Shown: positions 19,414-64,000 of the stretch, piece after piece
Layout of the letters: the number at the start of each line of letters is the position of its first letter
Numbering within the stretch: the first letter of the stretch is position 1
Origin: a virus
DNA: 64,000 nucleotides
Direction: 5' to 3' (one strand)
Virus record (IMG/VR): IMGVR_UViG_3300036403_000039
Coordinates: 1-64,000 of that record
Notes under the pieces: generated by a model
What the model was told of the DNA's origin: nothing
The model's database searches: none
Seen by the model: the letters and a program-made list of their open reading frames with translations, nothing else
Position numbers and translations under genes: made by a program

Positions 19414-19941
19414 ATGGGCATCTCGATTCGCGCTTACGCCCGTCACCGTGGTGTGACCGACACCGCAGTTCACAAGGCCATTCGCGCAGGTCGGATCACG
19501 CCGGAGGCTGACGGCACCATCGATGCCGACCGTGCTGACCGCGAGTGGGCGCGCAACTCCGATGCGCCCAAGGCTGGGACGCGCGCCAAGGCTGTAAAGG
19601 CCGCTGTGCCGGAGGGCAGTGGCGACGGGCCTGCAGCTTTACCTACTGGCGGTGCGTCCCTGCTTCAGGCGCGCACGGTCAACGAGGTGGTCAAGGCGCA
19701 GACCAACAAGGTGCGGCTGGCCCGACTCAAGGGCGAATTGGTGGATCGGCCGCAGGCCATCGCCCACGTTTTCAAGCTGGCGCGCTCCGAGCGCGATGCG
19801 TGGCTGAACTGGCCCGCTCGCATCTCGGCGCAGATGGCGGCCAAGCTCAATGTCGATCCGCACACGATGCACGTCGCCCTGGAGGCGGCGGTGCGTGAGC
19901 ATCTGCAGGAGCTGGGTGAACTGCGGCCCAGGGTGGACTGA
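19414..19941 (+). CDS. Terminase small subunit-like protein
   Basis: A 175-residue protein with an N-terminal HTH (ISIRAYARHRGVTDTAVHKAIRAGRI). A Pro/Ala linker follows, then a coiled-coil-prone segment (VVKAQTNKVRLARLKGELVDR), and a C-terminal helix pair with LNWPARISAQMAAKLNVD. This is the plan of lambda Nu1-type small terminases, which recognise cos DNA. It overlaps the large subunit start by 1 base. The TTG at 19390 is a possible earlier start; the ATG at 19414 gives the expected N terminus. Confidence 0.8.
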   Translation: MGISIRAYARHRGVTDTAVHKAIRAGRITPEADGTIDADRADREWARNSDAPKAGTRAKAVKAAVPEGSGDGPAALPTGGASLLQARTVNEVVKAQTNKVRLARLKGELVDRPQAIAHVFKLARSERDAWLNWPARISAQMAAKLNVDPHTMHVALEAAVREHLQELGELRPRVD

Positions 19942-45427: not shown

Positions 45428-48400
45428 CTACTTCACCAGCTCCATCAGTTTGCCGAAGCTGTTCACCACGTCGTACTTGACGTTCTCGGGAGCGTACTTC
45501 TGGTTGATCTCGTCGAAGAACTTGCGGGCGCACTTGATCTTGGTTTTCTCGATCTCGTTGAGCACCATTGACGACATCGACCCCTTGGTCTCGGCGACGA
45601 AGTACACGTGCTTGACTGTGCCCTCCTTGAACGATACGGCCCAGTCTGGGTTGTAGTCGCCAACGGGGGTGGGTATCAGGAAGCCGCGAGGCAACTTGGC
45701 GTACACGACGACTTCCGTGCAGGTATCGAGCTCCTTCACAAACTCCCGCTCGATCCCGGAATCCGTGATCACGTAGTCGTAGATGTGCCGCTTGAGCTTG
45801 TCACCGGCCTTGCTGAAGTCCTGTTTGGTCTGGCCTGCGGTGAAGATGTCGAGGTCGAATTTGTCCTCCACCGAGTCGTAGGCCAAGTGCTCGATGATCA
45901 TCGTTGCCTTCTGCTCGTTGATCAGTCGAACTGCCTCGGCGATGAAGCTTTCCGGATTGGTGCGGAACTGTGCAAACACCGCGACGCTGATCCCCTTGAG
46001 GATGTCAGCCGTCGTGCGCCGGGTCAGTTGCGTTCCCTCGGCAACCTTCCCGATGAGGTCGTACTTCACGGCTGAGTGGATGGAATGCACATTTTTTTCA
46101 GTTTCGGTGTCTTTGAGTACGAACGCCTCGCCATCCTTTAGCTCGTCATAGGACACTTGTGCAGCCTGCTCACCAGTTTGAATCGTGTATTGCAACGGCG
46201 TTACCCGAAGGCTTTTGTCCAGTTCTGTGACGGCCTTCGTGACCAACTCCGCTGAATCAAAGTCAACGCTGTAGGCTGCTTTGCGATTGATCCGGCTCCA
46301 CAGCTCCTTGAATTCCTGCTTGTCAAAGTTACTGTTGAGCGGGTTCTTCTTGGGGCGACGGTCGTCGGTGATTTCAAACATCTGGCTGTCGCTGAAGACG
46401 CTGTCGATCAGCTGGTACACCTGCTCGGCGTAGGCCTGCAATTCCGGGGGCAGCGGTACCAGGGTGCCTTCCTTCTTTGCCTCGTGGTACGTGCCTGTGA
46501 TGCGGTCGGTGTCATCGCTGTAGTCGTTCTTAAGCAGGTACTTATAGATCTGCTTGGCCAGCTGTGGCGTGATCTCGACATCCCCGGTGGCGGTCTTGAG
46601 AACCTTGCCAGTGAAGTAGGCTTCGTCTGCCACCTTGGGGCGTGCCGACAAGGACTCGCTGATGTCCTTCTGCAGTGCAGAGACGAAGTCTTTGTAACTT
46701 TCGCTGGCCACAACCGTGAGCACGTTGACGTCATGGACGGTGGCCGGATGATCCATTCGGTCGCCAGTCTGGTTGACAGACAAACGCAGACCACGGCCCA
46801 CTTCCTGTCGCCGCGAAATGGTGTTGTCACTGTGCTTGAGCGCACAGATCACGAACACGTTCGGGTTGTCCCAGCCCTCACGCAGAGCCGAGTGCGAGAA
46901 GATAAAGCGTACGGGCTCCTGCAATGACAACAAGCGCTCTTTCTGCTTCAAGATCAGGTCATAAGCGTCCACGTCATCAGACAGCCCGGCACCCTCACCA
47001 CGGGCGGCAACTGCAGGGTCAACGTCACGCTTGGTCTTCTTGTCGATGGAGAAATAGCCCTTGTGTGTCTTGGCTGGGGCGATCTCCTTCAAGTACTTGA
47101 TGTACGGCGTTTCATCCAGGTCAAGCACCTCGTTCAGGTACTGGCTGTATTCCTCTTCGAAGATCCGGGCGTAGTCGCCTTTCTCATCGGCCGCAGCGTA
47201 ATCCCGGTACTTGGCAACTTCGTCAATGAAGAATAGGGTCAATACCTTGATGCCTTGCTGGAACAGCACCTGCTCCTTGTCAAAGTGCGCCTTGATGGCT
47301 TCACGAATCTGGATTCGACGCAGCGCAGCCTCGTTCACATCACCATTGGCCTCGCCGACAAATAGTTCTACACCGTTGGTAAAACTTAAGGTGTCAGTAT
47401 TGGCGTTGATTTCCGACACCACATAGCCGCGATACTGATCTAGACCGCTCGAGAGGTCGAAAAGATTGTCGGTCTTCACCAGTTTGCGCACCACGCGCTT
47501 GATCTCGCCACTCTTCAGCTTCTGTTCAAACTCGACACGCGCCTCTGGGGGCTTCTTGGTCGAAATCTCGATGGACTGCAGGTACAGGTAGGCATTGGTT
47601 CCGGCGAGGCCCTTCACCGAGATGCCACGCACAGCGATCTTCTTCACCAGCTTCTGGTTGTAGGCATCCAACGCGTCTAGCCGGTGGATTTTGTTGTGCG
47701 AGGTCTTGTGGGTAGCCGAATACCGCAGCACCATCAGCGCCTTGAATTCCTCTAAGGACTTCAGGGTGGCAGCACCTTCCATCTTTTGCGGCTCGTCCAA
47801 GATAAGGACAGGGCGGTTGGCGCTGATGACATCAATCGGGCGGCGAGACTGGAAGTCATCGAGCTCGTCGTAGATGCGCCGGTTGTCAGCTCCTCGGGCG
47901 GCAAAAGCCTGGACGTTGATCACCATGACGTTGATCCCCGAATCTGAAGAGAAGCTCTCCAGTTGATGCAACTGCTTGGAGTTGTAGATGAAAAAACGCG
48001 CCTTCTTGCGGTATGTCTCCAGAAAGTGCTCGGCGGTGATTTCCAGCGACTTGGCCACACCCTCGCGGATGGCAATACTGGGCACAACAATGATGAACTT
48101 GCTCCAGCCGTACTGCTTGTTTAGTTCGAAGATAGTCTTGATATAGCAATAAGTCTTGCCGGTGCCCGTCTCCATCTCGATGTCGAGATTGACCTTGCTG
48201 ACTTTGTTCTTCACCAACTCCGTGGATTGCGGCAGATTCTGCTGATGCTGCACTCGGGTGATGTTCTCTAGCACCGCCACATCCGTCAGCTTCAGGTCGG
48301 CGTTCTTGAACCCCGATTCAGCAAAGAGGTCCTCAACCCCCTTCTTGGCCTTGCCTGGATCAATACGGTAACTGATGGCCTCTGGCGAGGCGGGTGGCTG

Positions 48401-48472
48401 ACCTTTGAAACAGTCAACCACGGCCTGTACAGCAGCCGATTGATATGACTGAACTTTGAACTTAAGTTTCAT
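45428..48472 (-). CDS. res: Type III restriction endonuclease Res-type helicase-nuclease
   Basis: A 1014-residue protein. The N-terminal SF2 helicase has METGTGKT (residues 100-107, Walker A) and [10 protein letters not shown] (motif II as DEPQ) near residue 225. A later helicase half contains [14 protein letters not shown] and [17 protein letters not shown] (motif VI). The C terminus contains NPDW...VAETKG (about residues 942-963), a PD-(D/E)XK endonuclease motif as in EcoP15I Res. It follows the Mod gene in the same operon and should cut DNA after translocation when cognate sites are unmethylated. Confidence 0.93.
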
Positions 48473-48508
48473 CGCTTGGCCACCTGCGATTTCTAATTTT
48501 GACTGCAG

Positions 48509-49183
48509 TCAGCATTGATTGACCTTTTGGGATAAGTGTTCCTTGAATTCTTCCTGCGAAACAACTTCATCGTCCGAATCGCTAAACTCAATGTATAGCT
48601 CCGTTGATTCGCGAATAATCTTCTTGGAAACTGTATAGTTCTTGCTCAAATTGGGCTTGATAAATACATATTTTTCAACCGGCTGCATATAGTGAAGTAT
48701 TAGCCAAACGTCTTCGGTCGGATGATTCTTTGCGTAGTTGAGCTTATCCGGCCGAACCCAATACGTTTGACCTCTCATTACCTCGGTCCCTGTGACCTCC
48801 ACTAGCAACACTACTGCTAGGCCTCCGCTTGTTCTTACCTCAAGATCGGGCTTTCCAGATTCCGAAGGATGGCCAGAAATGAATTCTCCGCTATCAGCGC
48901 CAAAGCCAACGATTTCTACAGTTACCCGACCATCTAGTCCTTCGATGAGGCTCTTGACTTTCTGAAGTCTCACTTTTTCTTTTGCCCATGCGCTTTCGCC
49001 GTACGCATGCTTCCAGTGGTGAGTTTCAAGCTCCTTAATCTGATCGCAGCCTATTTGCTGACCAATCTTAATGTTGAGCGCCGGAAATGTTCGTTCCCTG
49101 ATGCTGGTGCAGTAAGCGCCATCAACGTAAATCCAGTAACGCTGACGGTCTTGCTTGAAGACTATGTCGGTTATTTTTGGCAT
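48509..49183 (-). CDS. RecX-like N-terminus with nuclease-like domain, unknown
   Basis: A 224-residue protein between Mod and Res. Residues 1-75 (ITDIVFKQDRQRYWIYVDGAYC, then LNIKIGQQIGCDQIKELE) follow the pattern of the RecX N-terminal domain. Residues about 105-170 contain KPDLEV, then VVLLVEVTGT, then YWVRPDKLNYA, which resembles the spacing of a PD-(D/E)XK or related nuclease core (Asp, Glu and a later Lys), although the E-x-K is E-V-T. I know of no family with this combination. The coding DNA is visibly more AT-rich than the rest of the operon. Confidence 0.7.
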   Translation of the reverse strand: MPKITDIVFKQDRQRYWIYVDGAYCTSIRERTFPALNIKIGQQIGCDQIKELETHHWKHAYGESAWAKEKVRLQKVKSLIEGLDGRVTVEIVGFGADSGEFISGHPSESGKPDLEVRTSGGLAVVLLVEVTGTEVMRGQTYWVRPDKLNYAKNHPTEDVWLILHYMQPVEKYVFIKPNLSKNYTVSKKIIRESTELYIEFSDSDDEVVSQEEFKEHLSQKVNQC

Positions 49184-49233
49184 TTGATTCTCTTCCTGGT
49201 TTGATGGTGGTTCTTGTTAAAAGAAGGAGACTC

Positions 49234-51129
49234 TTACAAGACCTTAATCTCGGTGACAGGAGAGAGCAGCTTGAAGATTTGCTCAACATTTATCTTGACC
49301 GAACTGTCCTTAAACCCGGCATCGCGAAACACAGCGCGCAAAGGCTGTAATTTAGCCAGTTCCTTTACAAATGCCTCGTCGATTCTTCCATCGTCGCTAA
49401 AGCATGCAGCCATCGCATTGCCATCAACGCAGAACACATTTAGCCCACAGATATTCTGAGTGGAAACTGGAAGTCCCAGGTCTACGCCCCAGTCGAGCAT
49501 CACTTGAAAGAGCAGGTCTTCGGCGGTTCGGCCAGTCTTTATGTTGTCAACGAAGAGATCAAGATTTGATTTCTCAAGTGCATCGGGCACGTAATAGATA
49601 TCTGCCATGTTTGATGTGTCAATCTTGAGAACTCTGAAGCCAACGTCTCGATTCCAGCGTTCATTGCGGCCGCCTTGCAGTAGCTTTTTTCCAACGCGCC
49701 GAATTCGCTCCTTGCCGATATCTGCGATGTTGGTGAAGCCCGCTTTTGCCGCCTCACTACTCGGTTCGCATAGCTCTGGTAACTGCACCAATATGAATCT
49801 GGCGTTGCAGCCAGTTTCTGCAGCTCTGGCTAAAATGGCGTGCGCAGTCGTAGCTGAGCCGGAGAAAAAGTCGAGCACGATATCGGACTCATCCGAGAGG
49901 CATTGAGATGCCAGCGAGGACACAAGTTGAGTGGACTTCGGGTGTGGGAATAGCTTTGCGCTGAAAATATCCTGCAGTTCTCTGGTGGCCTGAGTGTTTG
50001 CGGGGGCAATGAGGGAATTGGCGATGCGATCCTCGACCTTAGATACGATCCAGGTTGAAACAGGAACAGTGTCGAATTTGGCCTCATTCTTGAAGCGCTT
50101 TAACATCGGGCGGCCTGAAGCAGTGGCAGGAAAAATTATCCTTCCTTCGGCAATTTTTTCAGCCATTGTCTTTCGGCTGTATGGCCAATATCGACCCTCG
50201 GGGGGCAAAAATTCGTGGCCTCTTTTCGGGTCTTTGATTGGGTAGTGGACGTCTCCGCCAGCTTTTCCCGCACTTAAGTTGTCAGCCTTCCAAGGGCCTC
50301 TCGGATCGTTGTCCGGATTGTTGTATCCCTCGTAGGTTCGTTCAATTCCAGCAAGACGCCCTTTACTCTTTGCATAACAAAGTACGTATTCGTGATCAAC
50401 GCTTGTATTGTCGACCGAATCCATTGCGCCACTTCGGCGTTTCCAGACAAAGCTACAGTAAAAGTTCTGCGAACCAAATACCTCGTCACACACCGCCCTA
50501 AGATTCGATACTTCGAAGTCGTCAATGGAAATAAAAATTACCCCATCATCTGATAACAGGTTCCTGGCGAGTCGCAAACGCGGAAGCATCATGCTCAACC
50601 AGTCGGAGTGAAAGCGACCGTTCGACTCCGAGTTCGCAATTAATCTATTTCCCTGGTCATCGACCTGTTTTGAGCGCTCGAAGTACGACGTGCTATCTTC
50701 GGCGAAATCGTCCTCATAAATAAAGTCGCTACCAGTGTTGTATGGTGGATCGATGTAGATCATCTTCACCTTGCCGAGATAGGTTTCCTGCAATAGCTTC
50801 AGCGCGTCGAGGTTGTCACCTTCGATGAATAGGTTTTTCGTGCTGTCGAAATCCACGCTTTCCGCTCGACAAGGGCGCAGCGTCTTTGCGATTGGGGCGT
50901 TTGCAGTAAGTACCGCTTCACGTTTTCCTGGCCAACTGAGGTGATAGCGTTCTTGCGGTCCGTCGACTACAGAATCAGAAAGTTCCTGTCGCAGTTGGTC
51001 AAAATCCACCGCCAGTTTGGTACAACCATCGTCATCCTTTATTTCTTTGACGCAACCGGGAAAGACATCCCGTAGATGCCTGATGTTGTCCTGTGTGAGG
51101 TTGGGCGAGTGCATTTTTGGTTTTTCCAT
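49234..51129 (-). CDS. mod: Type III DNA methyltransferase Mod
   Basis: A 631-residue beta-class adenine-N6 methyltransferase. IYIDPPYNTGSDF (Asp127-Tyr130, motif IV) comes before VLDFFSGSATTAHAI (motif I, residues 418-431), with the long target-recognition region between them as in EcoP1I-type Mod. The N-terminal helix (NIRHLRDVFPGCVKEI) is typical. It marks host DNA and gives specificity to Res. The base composition is clearly lower in GC than the flanking helicase and Res genes, which suggests separate acquisition. Confidence 0.92.
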   Translation of the reverse strand: MEKPKMHSPNLTQDNIRHLRDVFPGCVKEIKDDDGCTKLAVDFDQLRQELSDSVVDGPQERYHLSWPGKREAVLTANAPIAKTLRPCRAESVDFDSTKNLFIEGDNLDALKLLQETYLGKVKMIYIDPPYNTGSDFIYEDDFAEDSTSYFERSKQVDDQGNRLIANSESNGRFHSDWLSMMLPRLRLARNLLSDDGVIFISIDDFEVSNLRAVCDEVFGSQNFYCSFVWKRRSGAMDSVDNTSVDHEYVLCYAKSKGRLAGIERTYEGYNNPDNDPRGPWKADNLSAGKAGGDVHYPIKDPKRGHEFLPPEGRYWPYSRKTMAEKIAEGRIIFPATASGRPMLKRFKNEAKFDTVPVSTWIVSKVEDRIANSLIAPANTQATRELQDIFSAKLFPHPKSTQLVSSLASQCLSDESDIVLDFFSGSATTAHAILARAAETGCNARFILVQLPELCEPSSEAAKAGFTNIADIGKERIRRVGKKLLQGGRNERWNRDVGFRVLKIDTSNMADIYYVPDALEKSNLDLFVDNIKTGRTAEDLLFQVMLDWGVDLGLPVSTQNICGLNVFCVDGNAMAACFSDDGRIDEAFVKELAKLQPLRAVFRDAGFKDSSVKINVEQIFKLLSPVTEIKVL

Positions 51130-51154
51130 GTTCTTTTCCTTTGGCCGCTAGTAA

Positions 51155-51832
51155 TCAGTGGCTTAACTGTTCAAGTTCTGTTTGAAGTTGTCGCAAGGCG
51201 GCATTGATTTCGACCTTGCGATTAAATTGTTTTTCTTTGGAAAGTCTGCTGGCCGTCTTGTCGACCTCGCGCTGCTTCGACGCAACCAGCTCCACGCGGG
51301 CAACCAAATCGGCAAGACCTTCTCTCCCTCGTGCGGGCAATGGAATCAGCCGCTTCAACAGTTGCTCATACAAACCGCCCAGGTCGAGCGCAAGCGGCAT
51401 TGCCGCACGCTGGGCATCGTTCGGTAGCCAGCCGCAAGCAAAGTACTCGCTCAGCACCCAGCGGCTTACGTCTGTTTCATTGGGGCGCTTGTAGGCCGCG
51501 ACGACTTGCGTTTGTCCATCAAAGCTCAGCTCGAACACGACGGGGAACTGCACAGCCCCATCAATGCAGCGCAGCACGTCTAGATTCAGCTCTGGTGTCT
51601 TGAGCTGAATGGCGAAGACTTGAATCTCTGGCACCCCCGGCTTGGCGGGCAGGTTGATCGTTTCCGGAGCTAGCTTGTATTGCCAGACGATCTGCTCTAC
51701 CTGTTCAACGAACAACTCCTTCAGCCGCGTGTTGGCACCGCTGTGCTCGTAAATCTTGTTCTTTGGCAGGTTGCGTCCAAAAGTGGCTTGCTTGGGGTAG
51801 CTGATGAAGGCCGGATGTGTGGGCTGGCTCAT
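51155..51832 (-). CDS. DUF4391 domain protein
   Basis: A 225-residue protein matching DUF4391: SYPKQATFGRNLPKNKIYEHSGAN near the start, a beta-rich core (VFAIQLKTPELNLDVLRCIDGAVQFPVVFEL) and a coiled-coil end (VASKQREVDKTASRLSKEKQF). This family is found next to helicase-methylase loci in bacterial defence islands; its role is unknown. It overlaps the helicase stop by 4 bases. Confidence 0.85.
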   Translation of the reverse strand: MSQPTHPAFISYPKQATFGRNLPKNKIYEHSGANTRLKELFVEQVEQIVWQYKLAPETINLPAKPGVPEIQVFAIQLKTPELNLDVLRCIDGAVQFPVVFELSFDGQTQVVAAYKRPNETDVSRWVLSEYFACGWLPNDAQRAAMPLALDLGGLYEQLLKRLIPLPARGREGLADLVARVELVASKQREVDKTASRLSKEKQFNRKVEINAALRQLQTELEQLSH

Positions 51833-54800
51833 TCGACCTCCTGAATCACGAGGAAGGTGATCAGTTCGAAGTCATCCAGCCCGGCAATGGTGTTGACCAG
51901 CGCGGTGGTCTTGCCGCCGCTGAAAAGGCTGTCCAGATCCTTCTCTTCCTTCACCTCGATCATCGAGCGGATCGTCTTTCCGAGCAGGTCTGAGTACGCC
52001 TGCATCTTGCGGCCGTCGGCCGTTTCCTTGTTGAATAGGCGGCAGGCATCCGGAATAGGCTGTGCTTGCCCCTTGCAGCAACTGCGCACCAGATCGAGCA
52101 GCCGTTTGACCTCGGTGTGGTCGTGAATCACCTCACCCTCGCGGTTGATGTAGACGAGGTAGTAGGGGTGCAGTCGGTTGTGCAGGCTGACGTTGACACT
52201 TGGATTCAGGTTGCGCAGCGTGAATATCACGCCAGGGCGCAGGCCCAGCTCTGGCTTGGCAGGTACCACGGCGTGCATCCCGCTTGGCATATTGCTCAAT
52301 TCGCCATTGGCCTTGACGTAGTTGAGCAAGTCCATGCGGAAGTCATTGAGCCCCAGGTCAGTGATCGAAACGCCGGTCTTCAGGTCTTCCAGTTCGATCA
52401 CTTCCTCTTGCAGGCGACGCAGTTGCTCCTTGCGGTAGGACACGTCATTGGCTTGTGCGCTCAGCACGTTGTCGTCACCGGTGGCCGTGACGTCGGCAAT
52501 CATCATCCGGCTTTCAACCCGCTCCTTGAGGTTGATGTACTCGTCGAGCGAGATGTCCGGCCAGTAGTTGACCAGCTGGATGCTGGTATTGGGTGAGCCG
52601 ATGCGATCCACCCGCCCGAAGCGCTGGATGATGCGCACGGGGTTCCAGTGGATGTCGTAGTTGATCAGGTAGTCGCAGTCCTGCAGGTTCTGGCCTTCGG
52701 AAATGCAGTCGGTGCCAATCAGCAAGTCAATCTCTGCTGGTTCGTTCGGCAGCACGATGGCCTTCTCCTTCGAGCGCGGCGAGAAGAGGGTGAGCAGTTC
52801 CTGGAAGTCGTAGCTCTTCTTGAGCGTGGACTTCGGGGCACCCTTGCCAGTGACTTTGGCGCTGTGCAGGGCCTGCGTTGCCAGCAGCTCCGGTGCCAAA
52901 TTGGCAAACAGATAGTCAGCGGTGTCGGCGAAGGCCGTGAAAATCAGCACCTTTTTGTTGCCGGGATTCAGCGGTGCTGCGATCTTTCCCAGAACCAGTG
53001 CCTTCAGATGCTGCAGCTTGGCGTCATCAGCAGGCGTGATCTTGTTCATCGAAGCCAGCAAGGCATCAATGATCTCCAGATCGACTTTCAGCTCGTGTTC
53101 CCACGAGGGCAAGTCCATGTCGGCGAGGCTGATCTTGACCTTGCCGCCGATCTCATCATCGCCAAGAGCTGGCAAGTCGTCGTCGTCCGCGTCGAGGTTT
53201 TCCAACTGGTCGGTTAGGTCATCGATGCTGGCGACGTTGCCGGTCTGATTGAATGTGCTGATCTTGGTCAGCGTATTGGTGTGGTTCGCCCGCAGCGACT
53301 GGAGCGTCAAGCGGAAGGACTGAATCGAACTTTCGAGGCGCTTGAGCAGGTTAGTCGTCATCAACGCCTGCAGACTTTTCTCGCGGTCAGCTTGCTTAAG
53401 CTTGCCTTTGCCAGCGACCTGCGTGTCGTACATCTCCTCGTACTTCTTGAGCCGACTCGGCAGGATGTAGCTGATCGGCGCGTAGACAGCGAGCTTGAGC
53501 AGGGACAGTTGCTCGAAGATCTCGTTGAAGCTCATCACATCAGTTCGCTGCGTGAGCGGGCTGTGGAACGACAGGGGCTTTCGACGCTCGGGGAATTGGC
53601 CGATGTCCTTGGTGTCGTAGAAAGTCTGGATGTGCTTACGCGAGCGTGCGATGGTGACGCTGTCGAGCAGTTCGAAGAAGTCAAAGTCCAACGAATCCAG
53701 GATGGCCCGCGCTGTGCGCTCTTCCGGTGGAAGCTTTGCCCATGCGTTGAAGCTGGCCTGCGCGCCACGGAATATGTCCTCTACCGTCTTGCCGGTGCGC
53801 AGCTTCTTGCTGAGGTTCTCGGAGTCACCCTCGTAGGCCAGTGCCAGTTGATTGCGCAGGTCATTGAAGCGGTTGTTCACCGGAGTGGCCGAAAGCATCA
53901 GCACCTTGGTTTTAACTCCCTCCTTGATGACCTTGTTCATCAGCTTCTGGTACCGGGTCTCCTTGTCTTTGTAGGCGTCGTTGTTCCGGAAGTTGTGCGA
54001 CTCGTCGATGACGACGAGGTCGTAGTTGCCCCAATTGATGCGGTTCAGCGGTGTGCCAAACGACTCGCCGCTGGTGCGGCTGAGGTCGGTATGGCAGAGC
54101 ACGTCATAGTTGAACCGGTCGCGGGCAAAGATGTTGGTCTTGAGGTTGCGGTTGTAGTTCAGCCAGTTGTCGGCCAGCTTCTTAGGGCACAACACCAGCA
54201 CGGAACGGTTTCGCAGCTCGTAGTACTTGACGACTGCCAAGGCCGTGAAGGTCTTGCCCAGGCCGACGCTGTCGGCCAGGATGCAGCCGCTGTAGGTCTC
54301 GAGTTTGTTGATGATCCCGGTGGCCGCATCCTTCTGGTAGTTGAAGAGCTTGTTCCAGATGAGCGTGTCTTGGTAGCCCGTGCGGTCGTTCGGCAGGACG
54401 TCCTCGTTGATGTCGTCGAGGAACTCGTTGAAGATGTTGTAGAGCATCAGAAAGTAGATGCTCTCGGGCGAGTTCTCCTGGTAGACCGATGCGATGTGGT
54501 CGCAAATCTGCGCGGTCACATCTTCCAGCTTGTCTGGGTCTTGCCAGATCTGGTTGAACAGACTGAGGTAGGTGGCAGTGAAGGTTGGCTCGTCCATCTT
54601 GTTGACGAGGTTGGAGACTGCATTGCCTTGCTGGTAGCCGAGGTCGACGGCGGTGAAGCCGTGCAATGGCATATAGGCCGTATCTGTGGCGGCCGCCTGC
54701 ACACAGGCGAATTGCTGCATCGGGGCCTTACTGCGATTCGACTTGAAGGTCGCCTTGCGTCGCATCCAGTCAGCGCACTCCTTTGCAATCGCGCGCTGGG

Positions 54801-55098
54801 TCAGCTTGTTGCGCAGCTGAATCTCGAACTCACTCCCGTACAGGCTCCGTTCGCGGTCAGCCTTGGGGATGTGGAACTCCTTGCGTTCCTTGCGAATCTT
54901 GTCCGTGACCTCGTTGGCGACGAACGTCGGCGAAGTGAAGATGAAGTTCAGCTCGTCGATCTTTTCCAGCTCTGCTTTCAGCGCTTCGAACGCGTACATC
55001 GAGAAGCAGGAGGCTGCGATCTTCAGGCGGGCACCGGGCTTGAGCGTCTGCTTGAGGTCGTCGCCGAGCAGGCGGTTGATGTTGTCGATGAGTTCCAT
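51829..55098 (-). CDS. SNF2-type helicase-related protein
   Basis: A 1089-residue protein. The N-terminal about 170 residues resemble the PLD-like region of restriction-type helicases, although no HKD motif is visible. The helicase has ILADSVGLGKT (Walker A, Lys282), VVIDESHNF (Asp365-His368), and a C-terminal lobe with SEGQNLQDCDYLINYDIHWNPVRIIQRFGRVDRIG. Such proteins translocate on duplex DNA. The start at 55098 overlaps the WYL gene by ATGA, so they are co-translated. The first ATG of the longer frame would extend into the WYL gene. Confidence 0.9.
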   Translation of the reverse strand: MELIDNINRLLGDDLKQTLKPGARLKIAASCFSMYAFEALKAELEKIDELNFIFTSPTFVANEVTDKIRKERKEFHIPKADRERSLYGSEFEIQLRNKLTQRAIAKECADWMRRKATFKSNRSKAPMQQFACVQAAATDTAYMPLHGFTAVDLGYQQGNAVSNLVNKMDEPTFTATYLSLFNQIWQDPDKLEDVTAQICDHIASVYQENSPESIYFLMLYNIFNEFLDDINEDVLPNDRTGYQDTLIWNKLFNYQKDAATGIINKLETYSGCILADSVGLGKTFTALAVVKYYELRNRSVLVLCPKKLADNWLNYNRNLKTNIFARDRFNYDVLCHTDLSRTSGESFGTPLNRINWGNYDLVVIDESHNFRNNDAYKDKETRYQKLMNKVIKEGVKTKVLMLSATPVNNRFNDLRNQLALAYEGDSENLSKKLRTGKTVEDIFRGAQASFNAWAKLPPEERTARAILDSLDFDFFELLDSVTIARSRKHIQTFYDTKDIGQFPERRKPLSFHSPLTQRTDVMSFNEIFEQLSLLKLAVYAPISYILPSRLKKYEEMYDTQVAGKGKLKQADREKSLQALMTTNLLKRLESSIQSFRLTLQSLRANHTNTLTKISTFNQTGNVASIDDLTDQLENLDADDDDLPALGDDEIGGKVKISLADMDLPSWEHELKVDLEIIDALLASMNKITPADDAKLQHLKALVLGKIAAPLNPGNKKVLIFTAFADTADYLFANLAPELLATQALHSAKVTGKGAPKSTLKKSYDFQELLTLFSPRSKEKAIVLPNEPAEIDLLIGTDCISEGQNLQDCDYLINYDIHWNPVRIIQRFGRVDRIGSPNTSIQLVNYWPDISLDEYINLKERVESRMMIADVTATGDDNVLSAQANDVSYRKEQLRRLQEEVIELEDLKTGVSITDLGLNDFRMDLLNYVKANGELSNMPSGMHAVVPAKPELGLRPGVIFTLRNLNPSVNVSLHNRLHPYYLVYINREGEVIHDHTEVKRLLDLVRSCCKGQAQPIPDACRLFNKETADGRKMQAYSDLLGKTIRSMIEVKEEKDLDSLFSGGKTTALVNTIAGLDDFELITFLVIQEVE

Positions 55099-56000
55099 CA
55101 AGAATCCGCCTTTGGAGACGTGGCGTAGCCAGGAGCCAGTAGCGCGTTCTTCACGCCGTAAAGTGCCAGATGGTCTTTGAGCCACAGGCGGTATTCGGGG
55201 CCACGCAGGCGGTGGTCGGGGGAGCAGTCGACGCTCCAGCGCCGGAGCATGTATCCAGCAGTAGCGGCCCGAAGCTTCAGTGCCAGCACGCCGCCGGTGA
55301 AGCTGTAGTCGCGTGCCGTGATTTCAGGTCTAGGCTGGTCTGGATGCGGAACCAGTTCGATCTCGACAATCCGCGTCCACTGGATGTCGTCGTCAGGACG
55401 TTCGCCAAGCTTGGGGTCCTCGTCGAGTGTCCTGGGCGCTTCGATCCGAGTGATCACGAAGTCGCGGAACTCTCCGGTCTTGCGGTCGAATGCTCGGACG
55501 TGCCAACGTAGACCGCTGTCCACGAGCGCGAAGGGAACGATCACCCGCTCCGACTCTCCGTTGCTCACCGAGTGGTAACTGATGGCGACCGCACGCTTGG
55601 CGTGGATGGCTCTGCAGATAGGTGCCAGCACGTCCATGCAGGGGCTGCTCAGTGCAGCGGGGGCCTCGCAAGGCAATAGCGGGTGCGAATCACTGTTCAC
55701 GCCATCGCCAAACCCCAACGAAAGTGCCGACAGAACGCGCTGTGGTGCGTGCTCGAAAACCGGCGCGAAACTCTTGCCAATGCGGTAGATCTTGTTGCTG
55801 CCGTCGAACTCAATGTTTTGAGGGGCGACCTCGCGGTACAGGGCCAAGTCTCGCGTTGCACCCGCCGGTGCGACTCCGAATCGGCTAGTGAGATCAGGCC
55901 GTCCGATTTCGCCGATGAAGTACAGCCGGAAGTCGATGTAGGCGAGCCGCTCTCGTTGTGCGTGGCTCAGGCTCTCGACGCGTTGGGGGTGCATGGTCAT
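55098..56000 (-). CDS. WYL-domain transcriptional regulator (BrxR/CapW-like)
   Basis: A 300-residue regulator. An N-terminal winged helix (residues about 15-75: RLAYIDFRLYFIGEIGRPDLTSRFGVAPAGATRDLALYREVAP) is followed by a WYL domain (VPFALVDSGLRWHVRAFDRKTGEFRDFVI at about 180-210) and a C-terminal WCX-like part. This three-part plan is that of BrxR/CapW, which repress phage-defence operons until infection. The start MTMHPQ at 56000 has GAGGAGCGC upstream; an earlier in-frame ATG at 56048 lacks one. It overlaps the helicase gene. A perfect inverted repeat at 56075-56089 is the likely operator. Confidence 0.88.
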   Translation of the reverse strand: MTMHPQRVESLSHAQRERLAYIDFRLYFIGEIGRPDLTSRFGVAPAGATRDLALYREVAPQNIEFDGSNKIYRIGKSFAPVFEHAPQRVLSALSLGFGDGVNSDSHPLLPCEAPAALSSPCMDVLAPICRAIHAKRAVAISYHSVSNGESERVIVPFALVDSGLRWHVRAFDRKTGEFRDFVITRIEAPRTLDEDPKLGERPDDDIQWTRIVEIELVPHPDQPRPEITARDYSFTGGVLALKLRAATAGYMLRRWSVDCSPDHRLRGPEYRLWLKDHLALYGVKNALLAPGYATSPKADS

Positions 56001-56074
56001 GCGCTCCTCAACCGCCGCAAACGACGGAGGGACCGAAACCAACTTCACGTTTGCTCATTCGGGCGCGCCTCATA

Positions 56075-56180: not shown

Positions 56181-56212
56181 GGACGCGGGTTCGGTTCCGT
56201 GTTTCACCACCA
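56181..56212 (+). other. tRNA/tmRNA 3'-end-like remnant, candidate attachment site
   Basis: GGACGCGGGTTCGGTTCC followed by TTTCACC, A and CCA: from the T-loop G-TTC the geometry (5-base T-stem side, 7 acceptor bases, discriminator, CCA) is exactly that of a tRNA or tmRNA 3' end. GGACGCGGGTTC is also typical of ssrA 3' ends. The T-stem pairing is broken and no 5' half is seen upstream. It lies 166 bases before the P4-type integrase, the normal position for its att site. Confidence 0.4.
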
Positions 56213-56257
56213 AATGCAAGTTTCCACATGTTCCCACATGACCGGAAACACCCCTGA

Positions 56258-56287: not shown

Positions 56288-56377
56288 CTATACGTTCCTC
56301 AACAGATACACACAGCACGCGCCGCCGTGTATCCTCCGCTGTACCCGCCGCACAGATTGAAACTACGGGGTACACGG

Positions 56378-57604
56378 ATGAAGCGCAGTGAAATCAAACG
56401 TCGCCCGCTGGCAGACACAGTGGTCGCCACCCTTGAGCCGGAAGCCAAGGAGTACCGCGAGCACGACGGCAACAGCCTGTATCTGCGCGTCAAGCCGGAT
56501 GGCCGCAAATCGTGGCAGCTTCGCTACAAGAAGCCCGATGGCAAGTGGTCATGGATCGGCCTCGGCGGCTACCCCGAAGTGGGCGGCTCACTGGCTCGCC
56601 AGAAGGCGGCGGAAATGCGCGGCGATGTATCCCAGGGCCGCAACCCGCTGGCAATGAAACACGCGAGGAAAGCAGCAGAGGCAGAAGCCGCATCCAACAC
56701 CTTCGAAAAGCTCGCCCGCGAGTGGTACGCCAACAAGCGCAAGGGCTGGACGGAAGGAACGGCCGTGCGGACTATCGGCGCACTGGAGCTGCACGTTTTC
56801 CCGGTGCTCGGCAAACGCCCTTTCGCGGAGATTCTGCCCATCGAGTGGATGGAGTTTCTGCGCAACATGGAACAGAAAGGCATCGTCGAGCAGACGAGCC
56901 GCGTGCGGGGCATGTGCCGCGAAATCTACGACCTGGCGCGAGTGACCGGCCGGGCGACGCACAACCCGCTGGAGGGCCTGCACAAGTTCCTACAAACCCG
57001 GCCGGTGGAAAACTTCGCCCATGTATCCCAGGCGGAACTGCCCGCGCTCTTGCGTGCTATTCGGTCCTACCCCAGTGCCACCGACATTCGCATCGGCCTG
57101 CAACTGCTTTCCCTACTGGCCTGTCGACCTTCGGAGCTGCGCGAGGCCAGTTGGTCCGAGTTCGATCTTGATGGAGCCTTGTGGACAATCCCGGCCGAAC
57201 GCATGAAGCGCCGTCGGGAGCATTTGGTGCCGCTGCCTCAACAAGCCGTCGAGCTGCTGCGCGACCTGCACATACTGACCGGCACCTATCCTCTGCTCTT
57301 CCCTGGCCGCAGCGACTCGACCAAGCCCCGGAGCAATACCGTGTTCCTGATGGCGCTGCGCCGACTCGGCTATGAGGGCCGGCAAACCGGCCACGGCTTC
57401 CGGCACATCGCATCCACCACCCTCAACGAACATGGCTTCGATGAAAACCACATCGAGGCCCAGCTATCCCACGTCAAGGAAGGGGTAGCCGGCGTCTACA
57501 ACAAAGCGGTTTACCTGCCCCAGCGCCGGGAAATGATGCAGTGGTATGCCGACCACCTCGACAAGCTGGCCGGCGGTAACGTGGTGGCAATGAAACGCGC
57601 CTGA
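56378..57604 (+). CDS. P4-type tyrosine integrase
   Basis: A 408-residue recombinase. An N-terminal DUF4102/arm-binding domain (residues 1-95: YREHDGNSLYLRVKPDGRKSW) is followed by a core-binding helical domain and the catalytic domain. The catalytic set is Arg250 (LACRPSELR), His339/Arg342 (GHGFRH), His365 (LSHV) and nucleophile Tyr374 (VYNKAVY). P4-type integrases usually insert into tRNA or tmRNA 3' ends, consistent with the remnant at 56181-56212. The ATG at 56378 fits the family; the longer frame passes through the terminator. Confidence 0.95.
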   Translation: MKRSEIKRRPLADTVVATLEPEAKEYREHDGNSLYLRVKPDGRKSWQLRYKKPDGKWSWIGLGGYPEVGGSLARQKAAEMRGDVSQGRNPLAMKHARKAAEAEAASNTFEKLAREWYANKRKGWTEGTAVRTIGALELHVFPVLGKRPFAEILPIEWMEFLRNMEQKGIVEQTSRVRGMCREIYDLARVTGRATHNPLEGLHKFLQTRPVENFAHVSQAELPALLRAIRSYPSATDIRIGLQLLSLLACRPSELREASWSEFDLDGALWTIPAERMKRRREHLVPLPQQAVELLRDLHILTGTYPLLFPGRSDSTKPRSNTVFLMALRRLGYEGRQTGHGFRHIASTTLNEHGFDENHIEAQLSHVKEGVAGVYNKAVYLPQRREMMQWYADHLDKLAGGNVVAMKRA

Positions 57605-58470: not shown

Positions 58471-58528
58471 TATGACAGCAGCGGCACGGGTGCATACCTT
58501 GGCGACCCCTATGCACAAAGGCACCTAT

Positions 58529-58783
58529 ATGCACCCGAACCACTCCCATCCAAGTAAAGGTTTAATCCGCCAACTTGCCCTCTGCCAATGGCTCGACGTG
58601 ACCCGTTCCGGCCTCGCCAAGCTCAAGGCGAAAGACCCGACCTTTCCAAAACCCATCAAGGATGGCGACGCCCGCCAGGCTGCCGCCTATTACGTCGTGG
58701 CCGAGGTGGACGCCTGGTTGCAAGCCAAGATTGCAGCGCGGGATAAGGCCCAGGCCGATAGCGCCGAGGGTGCGAAACAATGA
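58529..58783 (+). CDS. AlpA-like DNA-binding regulator
   Basis: An 84-residue protein with an HTH_17/AlpA pattern: RQLALCQWLDVTRSGLAKLKAKDPTFPKPIKDGDARQAAAYYVVAEVDAWLQAKI. AlpA-type proteins act as excisionase or activator of the integrase gene in P4-like elements. The start at 58529 has AAAGG 9 bases upstream; earlier ATGs at 58511 and 58442 are possible but have no ribosome site. It overlaps the next gene by 4 bases. Confidence 0.78.
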   Translation: MHPNHSHPSKGLIRQLALCQWLDVTRSGLAKLKAKDPTFPKPIKDGDARQAAAYYVVAEVDAWLQAKIAARDKAQADSAEGAKQ

Positions 58784-59139: not shown

Positions 59140-60207
59140 ATGAGCTATTTTCAACAGCGCCGCGAGGCGTTGCCGGGATCGGCTTGCCTGAAGAAAACCC
59201 GGATCGTCGAAGACATTCGCGCGGTGGCCGCCGTCGCCTTGCAGCACGCCGCCGCATTGGTGCCGGAGCTACTGCCGGAAGGCACCCGCAAGGGTAGCGA
59301 ATGGGTTGCGCGCAACCCCACGCGAGCCGACCGACAGGCCGGGAGCTTTTCGGTTTCCCTGGCGGACGGACGCTGGCATGACTTCGCCTGTGGTGACGGC
59401 GGCGGCGACTTGGTGTCGCTGGCTGCCTACCTATGGGACGTGAATCAGGCAGACGCCGCGTGCGACCTGGCCCGCCGGTTGGGCCTGCGCCTCGATGCGC
59501 TGGAGGGGCGGCAGGGTACTGGAGACAGTCACGACGATGGCCAGCGGCAGCGGCTGGCGGCGGCAAGGCTGGAAGTCGCGCAGCGCACCGCCCGCGAGGC
59601 CGAGCAGAAACGCCACAAGCAACAGACCGCCGCCGACTTTGCGCGCCGACTTTGGCAGGCCAGCGCCGCCGCCAACCCGGCGCACGCCTATCTGGCGGCG
59701 AAGCGGTTGCACGCCCACGACCTGCGCGAGCATCGCGGGGAGCTGCTTGTGCCGCTGCTCAATACAGCCGGCGAGCTGGTGAACCTGCAACGCATCGGCG
59801 CCGACGGCGGTAAGCGCTTTCTGTTTGGCGGCCAAGTGCTCGGCGCCTTCCACCTGCTGGGCCAAATCGCGCCGGGGCGGCGCCTGTTCGTCTGCGAGGG
59901 TTGGGCGACCGGCGCCACGCTGTTCGAACACTACGAAGGCGCCGACGCCGTGGCCTGCGCCATGAATGCCGGCAACCTGCGCCCGGTGGCCCAGGCTCTG
60001 CGCGCCAAGTACGGCGGCCTGATTGAGCTGGTAATGGCTGGCGATGACGACCGCCTGAGTGACGGCAATCCCGGCCGCACGGCTGCTGATTCTGCCGCCC
60101 TGGCGGTTGGGGCCATGGTGGTGTTCCCCGAGTGGCCGGCGGGGGCGCCGCTGGAGCTGTCCGACTTCAACGACCTGCACTGCTGGGACGCCTCCCATGA
60201 CCGATAG
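59140..60207 (+). CDS. Toprim primase-like protein
   Basis: A 355-residue protein. The N-terminal region has SFSVSLADGRWHDFACGDGGGDLVSLAAYL, the zinc-less DnaG-like entry seen in phage primases. A TOPRIM domain follows at about residues 245-350, with FVCEGWATGATL (Glu253) and MAGDDDRLSDG carrying the acidic metal-binding residues. It likely synthesises primers for the element and overlaps the DUF927 helicase, as these are commonly encoded in pairs. Confidence 0.88.
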   Translation: MSYFQQRREALPGSACLKKTRIVEDIRAVAAVALQHAAALVPELLPEGTRKGSEWVARNPTRADRQAGSFSVSLADGRWHDFACGDGGGDLVSLAAYLWDVNQADAACDLARRLGLRLDALEGRQGTGDSHDDGQRQRLAAARLEVAQRTAREAEQKRHKQQTAADFARRLWQASAAANPAHAYLAAKRLHAHDLREHRGELLVPLLNTAGELVNLQRIGADGGKRFLFGGQVLGAFHLLGQIAPGRRLFVCEGWATGATLFEHYEGADAVACAMNAGNLRPVAQALRAKYGGLIELVMAGDDDRLSDGNPGRTAADSAALAVGAMVVFPEWPAGAPLELSDFNDLHCWDASHDR

Positions 60208-62101
60208 ACCAAACCAACCGGAGCCGGGCGAGGCATTCGGAGCGGTTGGCCAGGGGGAAGCGACGCCCAGCAGAAAGCGGCCGAGCAAACCAAGCAGCAA
60301 GCCGGCACCCAAGAAGCGCAAGGCGAAGATCAAACACCCCACGGTCACACCGGCCCGGCCGAGCTGGGCCACCTATGCCAACTGGGTGCAGACGCGGCAA
60401 GGCCACATCCTGGCCCCGGGCCTCTATTTCCATGGCATCCGCGACGATGCAGAAACCGACACGCTGGTCTGTTCGCCGCTGGAGGTGCTGGCCATCACCT
60501 GCGATGAACGCGGGGAAAACTTCGGTCGGCTGCTGCACCTGCTGCCCAAAGGGGCTAGCGCCTGGAAGCAATGGGCGGCGCCAATGGAGATGCTGGCCGG
60601 CGACGGTGCCGAGCTGCGCGCGGTGCTGCTCAACATGGGTGCGACCATCCCGCACAAGCAGCGGCAAGCGCTGATGGACTACCTGATGAGCAGCAGCCCG
60701 GAACGCCAAGCCATGGCGGCGACGCGCACCGGCTGGTATGGGCCGACGCTGTTCGTCATGCCGCGCCGGGTAATCGGCGGCGGTGACGTGGTGTTTCAGT
60801 CGACCGAGGCCGGCGGCCATGAATACGACACGGCCGGCGACCTGGCCGGCTGGCAAACCGAGGTGGCCGCCCGTTGCCTGGGTAATCCGGTGTTGATTCT
60901 TGCCGTCTGCGCGGCCCTGGCCGGGCCGTTGCTGACCCTGCTCGACGCCGACGGCGGCGGCTTCCATCTGCTGGGCGACAGCTCCAGCGGCAAGAGCATT
61001 GCGCTGGCCGTGGCCGCCAGCGTGTGGGGCAAGCCGCGCGATTTTCTGCGCACATGGAACGCCACCAGCACGGGACTGGAGGGCGTGGCCACGCTGCGCA
61101 ATGACACCCTGTTGGTGCTCGACGAAATCGGCGAAGCCAAGCCCCAGGACGTGGGCGGGATCATCTATGCCCTGGGCAATGGCACCGGCCGCCAGCGTGG
61201 CAAGGTGTCGGGGCTGCCGCGCCAGGTGCAGAAATGGCGGGTCATGGTGCTGTCCAGCGGCGAGCTGACCATGAGCAAGCACATGGAAAGCGCCGGCATG
61301 CGCAGCAAGGCAGGCCAAGAGCTGCGCCTATTGGACGTGCCCACCTATCGCCGCTATGGCGCCTATGACGACCTGCACGGCCTGGGCCTGCCCCATGACC
61401 ACACCAGCGAGGAAGGCCGCAAAGGCGCCGGCCGGGCGTTCGCCGACACCCTCAAGCGCGCGACGGCGCAACACTACGGCCAACTTGGGCCGGCCTTTGT
61501 CGAGCTGCTGGTGGCACGCGAGCCTACGGCCGAGGCCGCCGCCGAGCTGGAAGCCTTGTTCGCCGACATGCGCCAGGGCTTCCCCATCGGCACCGGGCAG
61601 GATGCGCGGGCGGCGGCGCGATTCGCCATCGCCGCCCTAGCCGGCGAACTGGCCATACAGGGCGGTTTGCTGCCTTGGGCGCAGGGCACCGCCATCGCCG
61701 CGATGCGGGAACTGTTCGGCGCCTGGGCCGAGTTCCGGGGCCGTGGTCAGTCCGAAGACGCCAAGATCATGCGGGCGGTGTCCACCTTCATCGACCGCCA
61801 CGCCGCCCGCTTTGCCAACATCGACGGCACGGACGGCGCCGCCGTGCATGACCGCGCCGGCTGGTATCGCGCCCATGGCGACGGCCGCCTCTACCTGTTC
61901 ACCGCGCAGGCACTGGCCGACGCCGCCCAGGGCTTCGACACGCGGCGCGTGCTGGCCTGCCTCGACAATGCCGGCGCCATCGCCGAGCGCGACAACGACC
62001 GCGACGGCCGTCTGACTAAGCGGGTGCGGGTCAAGGGTGAAGGCATTGCGCGGGTCTACGTGGTCAATCCCGCCGCCTTGCTGGCCGCCCTTGAGGAATA
62101 G
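60197..62101 (+). CDS. DUF927 helicase-like protein
   Basis: A 634-residue protein of the DUF927 family. A basic N-terminal tail is followed by CSPLEVLAITCDERGENFGRLL, and an ATPase core with Walker A GDSSSGKS (residues 260-267) and Walker B LLVLDEIGE (about 309). It also has SAGMRSKAGQELRLLDVP. DUF927 proteins are the replicative helicase partner of toprim primases in satellites and integrative elements. It overlaps the primase gene by 11 bases; the start MTDRPN is the first good ATG in frame. Confidence 0.88.
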   Translation: MTDRPNQPEPGEAFGAVGQGEATPSRKRPSKPSSKPAPKKRKAKIKHPTVTPARPSWATYANWVQTRQGHILAPGLYFHGIRDDAETDTLVCSPLEVLAITCDERGENFGRLLHLLPKGASAWKQWAAPMEMLAGDGAELRAVLLNMGATIPHKQRQALMDYLMSSSPERQAMAATRTGWYGPTLFVMPRRVIGGGDVVFQSTEAGGHEYDTAGDLAGWQTEVAARCLGNPVLILAVCAALAGPLLTLLDADGGGFHLLGDSSSGKSIALAVAASVWGKPRDFLRTWNATSTGLEGVATLRNDTLLVLDEIGEAKPQDVGGIIYALGNGTGRQRGKVSGLPRQVQKWRVMVLSSGELTMSKHMESAGMRSKAGQELRLLDVPTYRRYGAYDDLHGLGLPHDHTSEEGRKGAGRAFADTLKRATAQHYGQLGPAFVELLVAREPTAEAAAELEALFADMRQGFPIGTGQDARAAARFAIAALAGELAIQGGLLPWAQGTAIAAMRELFGAWAEFRGRGQSEDAKIMRAVSTFIDRHAARFANIDGTDGAAVHDRAGWYRAHGDGRLYLFTAQALADAAQGFDTRRVLACLDNAGAIAERDNDRDGRLTKRVRVKGEGIARVYVVNPAALLAALEE

Positions 62102-62103
62102 CC

Positions 62104-62868
62104 ATGGCAGACCAGAAATCGTCAACCGGTAAACCCCGGGTCACACCGGGAACAAACCGCCAGGCCCGGCAAGCGCGGGTCTTTGCGGGCGCCGTTGCTG
62201 GGTCACAGACCGGGAACACGCCGGGAACAACCGGGAACAGCGGCCAGACTTTTTGTTCCCGGTGTTCCCGGTCAAAACCATTACCGGGAACAGCTACAGG
62301 CCCCGCCATTGCTGGTTGTTCCCGGTGTTCCCGGTGTGACCCAGGCCAACAGCAGGTATCGCGCGGCAATGGGCCAGCGAAAACGGCGCCGCCCGACTTG
62401 GCGGCCCTGGGCGCATTCGTTCGGCGGTCGCAACCCGTCACCACCATCGCAGAGGCCGGCAGCCCCTCGAACCTGCCCGCCTCGCAGTGGCTGGAACTGC
62501 TGGCCGCCGTGCTGGGCTGTTCGCCTGGCTGGTTGCTTGAAAGCGGGCGGGTGGACGCCGACGACCTCGCCGCGCGCGGCCGTATCAGTGACGCCGCCCG
62601 GCTGATTCGCTCGCACGGCTGGACAACGCCAACGCGCCCACAAACTTCGCCGGCACCGACCACCGACACCAGCACGACCGCAGCAGCGCCGGTGGCCTGG
62701 CAGATGGCCCGCGACACCTACCTGAGCCACGTCATGGCGTGCCGCACCTGTCGCGCCCATCTGCCCAAATCCCCCACGCACTGCCCGGCCGGCGCCGAGC
62801 TGCGCGCGCTGTACGACCGACAAACCACACACCACATCACCCCGACCCTGGAGACTCCCCATGTCTAA
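62104..62868 (+). CDS. Unknown protein encoded across a 9-mer repeat array
   Basis: A 254-residue protein. Residues about 15-80 are encoded by the CCGGGAACA array and are low-complexity (GNTPGTTGNSGQTFCSRCSR, then CSRCSRCD). The C-terminal part (about 110-250) is more normal: SQWLELLAAVLGCSPGWLLESGRVDADDLAARGR looks like a small helical domain, and near the end is a CRTC...C set. The repeat DNA is likely the important feature; the reading frame may have adapted to it. Confidence 0.6.
   Translation: MADQKSSTGKPRVTPGTNRQARQARVFAGAVAGSQTGNTPGTTGNSGQTFCSRCSRSKPLPGTATGPAIAGCSRCSRCDPGQQQVSRGNGPAKTAPPDLAALGAFVRRSQPVTTIAEAGSPSNLPASQWLELLAAVLGCSPGWLLESGRVDADDLAARGRISDAARLIRSHGWTTPTRPQTSPAPTTDTSTTAAAPVAWQMARDTYLSHVMACRTCRAHLPKSPTHCPAGAELRALYDRQTTHHITPTLETPHV
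62146..62334. repeat. Nine copies of CCGGGAACA in both orientations (iteron/origin-like array)
   Basis: Exact 9-mers: CCGGGAACA starts at 62146, 62210, 62221, 62231 and 62284; its reverse complement TGTTCCCGG starts at 62254, 62263, 62317 and 62326. Several copies abut with 0-1 base between them. The array lies just downstream of the primase and helicase genes, as do origins in P4-like elements. Confidence 0.8.
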
Positions 62869-64000
62869 ATCTGTTGCCGTCAGCCTGTCCGAAGCCGTGA
62901 TTAAGCGGCATGCCGGCGATAGCGCTGTCACCCAACTACGCGACACCCAACGCCCGCTCCGCTTTCGCTACCGCAAGAACCGCGAGCGCGGCAGCTTCTA
63001 CGTCGTGACGCGCGCCCAGGGCAAAGAGCGCTGGCACAAGCTCGGCAACTATCCCGACCTCACCGTTAAGGCGGTGTTGTCGGTGCTGCCTAACGTCATG
63101 CAGCGGCTGGCCGTCGAGCCGCAGACGGGCGCGCTGTCTACGTCCGGTTGGTCGACCGTCGGCGAGGTGCTGGAGTGGTATGCGCAGCGCGTCGCGCACA
63201 ATGCCAACCTCAGTAAGAACCGCAAGGCCACGGCGCGCTCGGCGGTGAAATGCCAGCTACTGCCCTGCCTCGGCACGTTGCGTTTGTCAGAGCTGAGCCA
63301 CGCCACCCTAGACACCAAGCTGATGTGGCCGCTGCAATCGCAATACAGCGTGGCGCATGTGCGCTTGGTGTTCGGTGTGCTCAAGGTCGCATTCAAGCAG
63401 GCCGCTAGCCTGGGCCTGATCGGCAAGAACCCAATGGCCGACATGACCTTTACCGACTTCATCAAGACCAAGATCAAGCCGAAAGATGCGCGCTTGCGTC
63501 CGGTCGATTGCGGGCGCCTGCTGGAGCATTGGGCCGCCCGTTACCGTCAAGAAACCACGGCGGTCGCCCTGGCGGTGCTGATGCTGGCCCACGGCACGCG
63601 GATCGGAGAAACCCGTCAAGCCAAGTGGCGGCACTTCGACCGGATCGGCAAGACCTGGCATATCCCAGCCGTCGACACCAAGACCAAGAAAGCCCACACC
63701 CTGCCACTCACCGCCCAGGTGTGCGCGTTCCTGGCCCGCTATCGTGATAGTCAGGTGGCCCGAGGCTATGACGGCGCCTACCTGTTCCCCGGCGTGCAGG
63801 GCCGCCCCTTCAGCGAAATGCAGGCGCAGTTGGCGTTTACCTCATTATCGGGTGAGCAATGGACCAGCCATGACCTCAGAAAGACAGCCCGCACGGCCTG
63901 GGCTGACCTGGGCGTCGATTACCTGATCGGTGAGCTGCTGCTGAATCACGCGCTCAAGGCGCTAGACGTGACCTACATCCACACCACCGCCGAGGCGCAA
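62861..64000 (+). CDS. Second tyrosine recombinase (3' end outside window)
   Basis: 380 codons are present without a stop; the gene continues beyond the window. An N-terminal arm-type domain (RPLRFRYRKNRERGSFYVV) is followed by a core-binding region, then the catalytic residues Arg247 (AHGTRIGETR), His337/Arg340 (SHDLRKT), a His near 363 (LLNHALK) and Tyr372 (VTYIH). All catalytic residues are present, so only a short tail is missing. It overlaps the previous stop by 8 bases. It differs from the integrase at 56378, so the element encodes two distinct recombinases. Confidence 0.92.
   Translation, partial: MSKSVAVSLSEAVIKRHAGDSAVTQLRDTQRPLRFRYRKNRERGSFYVVTRAQGKERWHKLGNYPDLTVKAVLSVLPNVMQRLAVEPQTGALSTSGWSTVGEVLEWYAQRVAHNANLSKNRKATARSAVKCQLLPCLGTLRLSELSHATLDTKLMWPLQSQYSVAHVRLVFGVLKVAFKQAASLGLIGKNPMADMTFTDFIKTKIKPKDARLRPVDCGRLLEHWAARYRQETTAVALAVLMLAHGTRIGETRQAKWRHFDRIGKTWHIPAVDTKTKKAHTLPLTAQVCAFLARYRDSQVARGYDGAYLFPGVQGRPFSEMQAQLAFTSLSGEQWTSHDLRKTARTAWADLGVDYLIGELLLNHALKALDVTYIHTTAEAQ

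Follow-up and report, generated by a model that had tools for sequence, protein, structure and literature searches.

A cluster of short repeats at positions 62146-62334 of the viral DNA analysed here is very probably the iteron cluster of a replication origin, or at least the part of it that binds Rep, in a small, integrating, satellite-like element. This reading is based on the position of the array, its conservation, the geometry of its copies, the homology of the adjacent helicase to the SaPI Rep protein and the covariation of helicase residues with repeat bases; by position, conservation, homology and covariation, the evidence supports the iteron origin proposed in the first-pass annotation. 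Arrays of this kind are already known from SaPIs, Gram-negative PICIs and P4, and on our best reading the novelty lies in a swappable, residue-level recognition code.

The element and its genomic surroundings

The window, i.e. the whole stretch of 64,000 nucleotides that was analysed, derives from an IMG/VR virus record of 65,603 bases. The array is located in an element of ~8-9 kb with two tyrosine recombinases, which probably starts at ~56.2 kb at a tmRNA-type attachment core and whose right end is estimated to lie between 64.05 and 64.9 kb. BLAST homology with the related genome G002 begins at window position 56207, which corresponds to the end of the G002 tmRNA gene. The features of the element are as follows:

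56204..56222, no strand assigned: probable left attachment core (CACCAAATGCAAG...), matching the 3' end of a relative's tmRNA and the sequence after it
56375..57604, + strand: tyrosine integrase with arm-binding domain, start approximate (Pfam Phage_integrase 8.8e-21, Arm-DNA-bind_3 2.7e-18)
58526..58783, + strand: small AlpA/excisionase-like DNA-binding protein, weak assignment (phrog_4745 7e-4, phrog_66 0.008)
59140..60207, + strand: TOPRIM DNA primase (Pfam Toprim_3 3.4e-8; phrog_2249 DNA primase 2.7e-61)
60197..62101, + strand: DUF927 helicase, putative replication initiator (Rep) (Pfam DUF927 6.7e-82)
61748..62098, + strand: winged-helix domain at the helicase C-terminus, proposed reader of the iterons (AlphaFold models; wing hairpin ~61979-62065)
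62104..62868, + strand: open frame over the array, of which only the post-array part resembles the downstream gene of relatives
62861..64000, + strand: second tyrosine recombinase, running past the window end (Pfam Phage_integrase 3e-17; read on in L196)

An AlpA gene is found in phiAH14b at the place corresponding to 58526..58783. As in PICIs, the integrase is situated at an attachment site, and relatives occur at tmRNA and tRNA-Leu genes with flanking direct repeats. In P. composti (G001), a 93% identical module follows tRNA-Leu; it is flanked by direct repeats, and its integrase is a different one. The right-end recombinase (62861-64000) is retained in near relatives, which differ in their left integrase and in their target site. 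No structural genes were recognised in the element, and no capsid or packaging gene in the region 56.2-64 kb; relatives of the element are recorded as small phages or as an integrative plasmid. From its gene content, an integrating element with a primase, a Rep and an origin and with no recognised structural genes may plausibly be labelled a satellite.

The remainder of the window contains prophage genes, including those for the terminase gpA (19941-21908) and the tape measure protein (30156-34199), and a restriction-type region at 45-56 kb. The latter (45428-56048) codes for a ResIII protein with an endonuclease domain and an N6/N4 methylase (Type III restriction-type), adjoined by DUF4391, an SNF2-type helicase and a WYL regulator, and is a defence-like cassette between the prophage and the satellite element. 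Two neighbouring proteins encoded at 14829-17656 each combine a ParB-like N-terminal domain with a DNA methylase domain.

Repeat units, reading frame and arrays in relatives

Nine exact copies of the 9-mer CCGGGAACA/TGTTCCCGG, five on the + and four on the - strand, occur within 62146-62334, the same count and span as previously noted, with several copies abutting (the - pairs at 62254/62263 and 62317/62326) and only 1-2 bases between the members of a + triplet (62210, 62221, 62231). The units of the array are:

62138..62145, + strand: degenerate flanking unit GGGTCACA, exact match, kept in relatives; the slot holds a true copy in L150
62146..62154, + strand: iteron 1, exact copy
62200..62207, + strand: degenerate unit GGGTCACA
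62210..62218, + strand: iteron 2, exact copy
62221..62229, + strand: iteron 3, exact copy
62231..62239, + strand: iteron 4, exact copy
62254..62262, - strand: iteron 5, exact copy
62263..62271, - strand: iteron 6, exact copy
62284..62292, + strand: iteron 7, exact copy
62317..62325, - strand: iteron 8, exact copy
62326..62334, - strand: iteron 9, exact copy
62335..62342, - strand: degenerate unit TGTGACCC

The degenerate units at 62138, 62200 and 62335 flank the groups of copies and are kept in near relatives, L005 differing by a single base. In the 64-kb window, the exact 9-mer is present 12 times, against 0.84 expected from dinucleotide shuffles (maximum 4 in 100 shuffles), the three remaining copies being scattered singles outside the array. 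The array is GC-rich, with at most 45% AT in any 40-bp window, unlike the arrays of many relatives, in which AT-rich tracts are visible.

The translations of the repeats as CSRCSR and GNT/PGTT strings given in the first-pass annotation are correct, and the array does lie within an open frame as stated there, but this frame is not kept in close relatives. Selection on the encoded CSR/GNT peptide would account for the 254-codon open frame with a plausible start that covers the array, and L005 and L006 have this frame open as well. When synonymous codons were shuffled in the ORF at 62104-62868, however, a mean of 0.46 copies (maximum 3 in 1000 shuffles) resulted, against the nine observed, and thus neither protein sequence nor codon usage explains the array. 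The two orientations encode unrelated peptides, and a frame survey found stops within the array in many relatives. Gains and losses of 9-10 bp within the array shift the reading frame among near relatives: in L004 and L007, the frame that opens with the ATG corresponding to 62104 stops just past the array, and the protein downstream is read in a different one. It is accordingly the DNA of the array that is kept rather than the peptide, in line with the earlier suggestion that the protein sequence follows the DNA. Judged from these frames, translation through the array is incidental, and a protein repeat, rejected on the synonymous shuffles and the frame shifts, has next to no likelihood.

All four records with a 96-98% identical helicase contain the array, with eight or nine exact copies in varying arrangement, some gained and some lost. 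The first-pass annotation suggested a check of copy-number polymorphism in relatives, and its reading would have been refuted by relatives that share the primase and helicase and lack an array, of which there are none among these four. More distantly, an array with another motif exceeds shuffles at the same position in 36 of 38 intact Pseudomonas loci whose primase and DUF927 helicase are encoded by separate genes (L011-L015, L017-L039 and L045-L054), an array being called where a 7-mer in the 600 bases past the helicase stop reached a copy number that none of 30 mononucleotide shuffles attained. The two exceptions, L012 and L013, have only 3-4 copies, within the shuffle range. In a class of DUF927 proteins of ~970 residues that is common in Pseudomonas (L056-L084), none of the 29 loci has an array.

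The motif differs between elements and agrees among the copies within one element. Relatives of the window element, with its CCGGGAACA, carry GGGGAACA, GTGGGAACA, GTGGCAACA, AGGGGACA, AGGGAACC or GGGTGACA. Arrays of similar position and copy geometry are also found in Salmonella (GGTAACA in one record) and other Gammaproteobacteria (GCGTTACA, GTGGAACA, CCGTGACA, CTGATACG and GGGGTACAG). Between relatives, the motif changes in nearly all copies at once while the copy positions stay. L015, L143 and L146, with three motifs, have the common pattern +++ - ++ -- + ---, with positions agreeing within ~10 bases, and in L150 (motif GAAGACA) the copies occupy the slots of the window array, including those held by the degenerate GGGTCACA in the window. 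In L189, the downstream array comprises 14 copies of CTGATACG and includes a duplication of a ~150-base block.

Short inverted repeats rich in GC are reminiscent of dispersed REP elements, and a dispersed chromosomal repeat or an assembly artefact might be suspected. A search with two-copy units of three host genomes and a viral contig recovered only the element's own array, on which ground the dispersed-repeat reading was rejected, and the same array is present in five independent records, which speaks against an artefact. Either origin for the array is thus exceedingly improbable.

Covariation of the helicase wing with the repeat motif

The DUF927 helicase matches SaPIbov1 Rep (8tch) and SCCmec Cch (5dgk) both by sequence and by the fold of its AlphaFold model (mean pLDDT 68; C-terminal part mostly 74-85). 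Modelled alone, its C-terminal domain forms a winged helix (pLDDT 79), for which the best Foldseek matches are TcpK on oriT repeats, SaPIbov1 Rep and Cch; the E-values are weak (0.01-0.07), the probabilities 0.99-1.00. Homology of this domain to the P4 origin-binding domain had been expected; the latter is absent among the fold matches listed. TcpK binds a nine-base tandem repeat chiefly by its beta-wing (PMC6137059).

In a first sample, two alignment columns, both within the last 30 residues of the helicase, split GGCAAC from GGGAAC elements. Across 80 helicases, these two are still the sole columns of 743 to have disjoint residues (N versus K/R; Q versus others), both in the C-terminal wing, and motif base and wing residues agree in 19/19 and 61/61 cases. 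Since the columns were picked in the first sample, it is the held-out and tree tests that carry the weight. With the rule fixed before new loci were fetched, the GGC/GGG rule held for 34 of 34 new, non-duplicate loci (wing N...Q with GGC in 10/10, K...S/N/T with GGG in 24/24) and that for the base before GGG for 21 of 21 ([DE]SR[KR] with GGGG in 15/15, KR[HY] with TGGG in 6/6); the new loci are not all mutually independent, and the covariation is shown best for these GGC/GGG and TGGG/GGGG classes rather than for the window's own CCGGGAACA class. The GSRR wing of L101 pairs with CGGG and falls outside the rule as written. On the helicase-core tree, the motif base changes 10 times, and the six independent pairs on supported branches are all concordant (sign test p = 0.031). 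The length of the wing was also considered as an indicator of whether T or G precedes GGG, and discarded: a simple gap test for the indel alone failed to separate the two, which the residue pattern did. Covariation of this kind suggests that the C-terminal domain of Rep may bind the iterons. In the code proposed from these pairings, a wing with N...Q would read GGCAAC and one with K/R and a residue other than Q would read GGGAAC, while [DE]SR[KR] would read GGGGAAC and KR[HY] would read TGGGAAC.

Operators and packaging sites, too, can consist of short repeats in both orientations, and the array could accordingly be conceived of as a transcription operator or a packaging or helper-recognition array unrelated to replication. 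It fits such sites in its bidirectional arrangement of short repeats, but its motif covaries with the DNA-binding wing of the replication helicase itself and the array moves together with the helicase C-terminal domain, leaving this explanation very little probability beside an origin.

That movement is apparent where pairs of elements with 88-91% identical core genes are compared. Where the motif is the same, the C-terminal domains are 89% identical (n=50, minimum 82%), against 74% where it differs (n=43, maximum 79%). Between L050 and L051, identity drops from ~92% to 60-77% across the array and the final 300 bases of the gene, and is back to 85-90% at 375-525 bases past the helicase stop. 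L052 has two successive arrays after one helicase, first of GTGGGAACA and then of GGGGAACA, which is what a half-completed cassette exchange might leave. From these comparisons, the C-terminal domain as reader and the array as its sites seem to be exchanged together. We consider it fairly probable that wing and adjoining array constitute a single specificity cassette that can be swapped and follows a simple recognition code, in which recombination replaces reader and sites in one step, so that satellites change their replication specificity and keep the rest of the replicon. Point coevolution is a possible alternative to a cassette swap. There was no sign that co-resident elements avoid the same motif; two of the ten genomes having two scored elements, compared by eye, share a motif, which is approximately the chance level. 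No free-standing wing domain, as in the PLE origin-directed nuclease, was found in 200 Pseudomonas genomes, where every strong match to the wing domain is fused to a helicase, and no origin-reading agent is thus shown behind the change of motif.

The proposed origin in relation to known systems

In the proposed mechanism, the DUF927 helicase encoded just upstream of the array would act as a self-loading initiator, the C-terminal winged helix of which would bind the 9-bp repeats through its beta-wing. Rep would assemble on both groups of copies, which are oppositely oriented, and open the DNA, and the TOPRIM primase of the element would then prime synthesis after excision. Iteron binding, DNA melting and use of the array as a start site are steps that we infer from the features described above.

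The GC-rich composition of the array, which has no AT-rich melting stretch like that of the Gram-negative PICIs, counts against the origin reading. The start site could lie elsewhere, as the crr of P4 is a cis-required region separate from the annotated origin. The array might on this account be a Rep-binding control site, for copy-number or incompatibility control or as a crr-like helper, with replication starting elsewhere in the element; P4, in which ori and crr are separate and both have the same type I repeats, is a precedent. Even with one mismatch allowed, however, the window contains no second cluster of the motif, and hence none resembling the P4 ori, and the functional origin of Gram-negative PICIs and of SaPIs is located 3' of rep. 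A control site of this kind therefore appears unlikely, and an origin that includes the array remains the preferred reading.

Origins of satellites and small replicons are usually found singly by experiment. As repeat sequence and helicase tip change together across relatives, the recognition code is readable and testable, and with ~90 elements pairing a protein hairpin with the bases it apparently reads, the origin specificity of DUF927 helicases could be predicted from sequence and checked by the exchange of a few residues or nine-base units. A likely replication system is also offered for relatives such as pHS87b, the helicase of which is 40% identical to that of the window. The circular form of pHS87b is ~2-fold more abundant than the integrated form, and its replication genes could not be identified by the authors (PMC4739549). 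Past its helicase (L041 6882-7322), pHS87b has a different candidate array of five GCTAGC palindromes in ~450 bases.

Among known systems, the Gram-negative PICI origins (EcCICFT073, Fillol-Salom 2018, PMC6092414), for which a rep-ori segment replicates a plasmid, share with the window element the unidirectional order of integrase, regulator, primase, rep and iterons, their occurrence in Gammaproteobacteria and the location of several short repeats immediately 3' of the gene for the Rep helicase. They differ in having two iteron sets flanking an AT-rich region (PMC6092414), an arrangement not found in the window, where the array is without a pronounced AT-rich stretch and an open frame extends over it, and the window element has a second recombinase and no recognised capsid or packaging gene. 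With SaPIbov1 Rep and SCCmec Cch, the element shares a DUF927-type helicase that is homologous by sequence and predicted fold. SaPI Rep helicases recognise, through their C-terminal domain, iterons directly downstream of their own gene (PMC7581432), as is proposed for the window helicase, although sequence identity is low (~15% in the fold match), the hosts are Gram-positive and the comparison covers the helicases and the placement of the iterons. The annotated crr of P4 consists of GGTGAACA repeats in both orientations directly downstream of the alpha primase-helicase gene, and this motif resembles CCGGGAACA of the window. P4 differs in its second repeat cluster (ori) and in combining primase and helicase in one alpha protein, where the window element has separate genes and no alpha-type fusion, and no sid, psu or delta genes were found among the element's family matches; the likeness is one of array placement and motif. 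The C-terminal domain has its best fold match in TcpK, which reads the 9-bp tandem repeat of the pCW3 oriT (PMC6137059) in a similarly wing-centred manner but is a conjugation accessory protein rather than a replication initiator, and the match has a weak E-value (0.012). In the RepA-ori of the Vibrio cholerae PLEs, initiator and iterons likewise vary in concert and are exchanged between relatives as one module, which has been tied to a phage nuclease directed at the origin (PMC8263062). The PLE initiator belongs to the RepA_N family, and both it and its iterons are unrelated to those of the window, so that the swapping of initiator-origin modules would here be extended to another initiator family.
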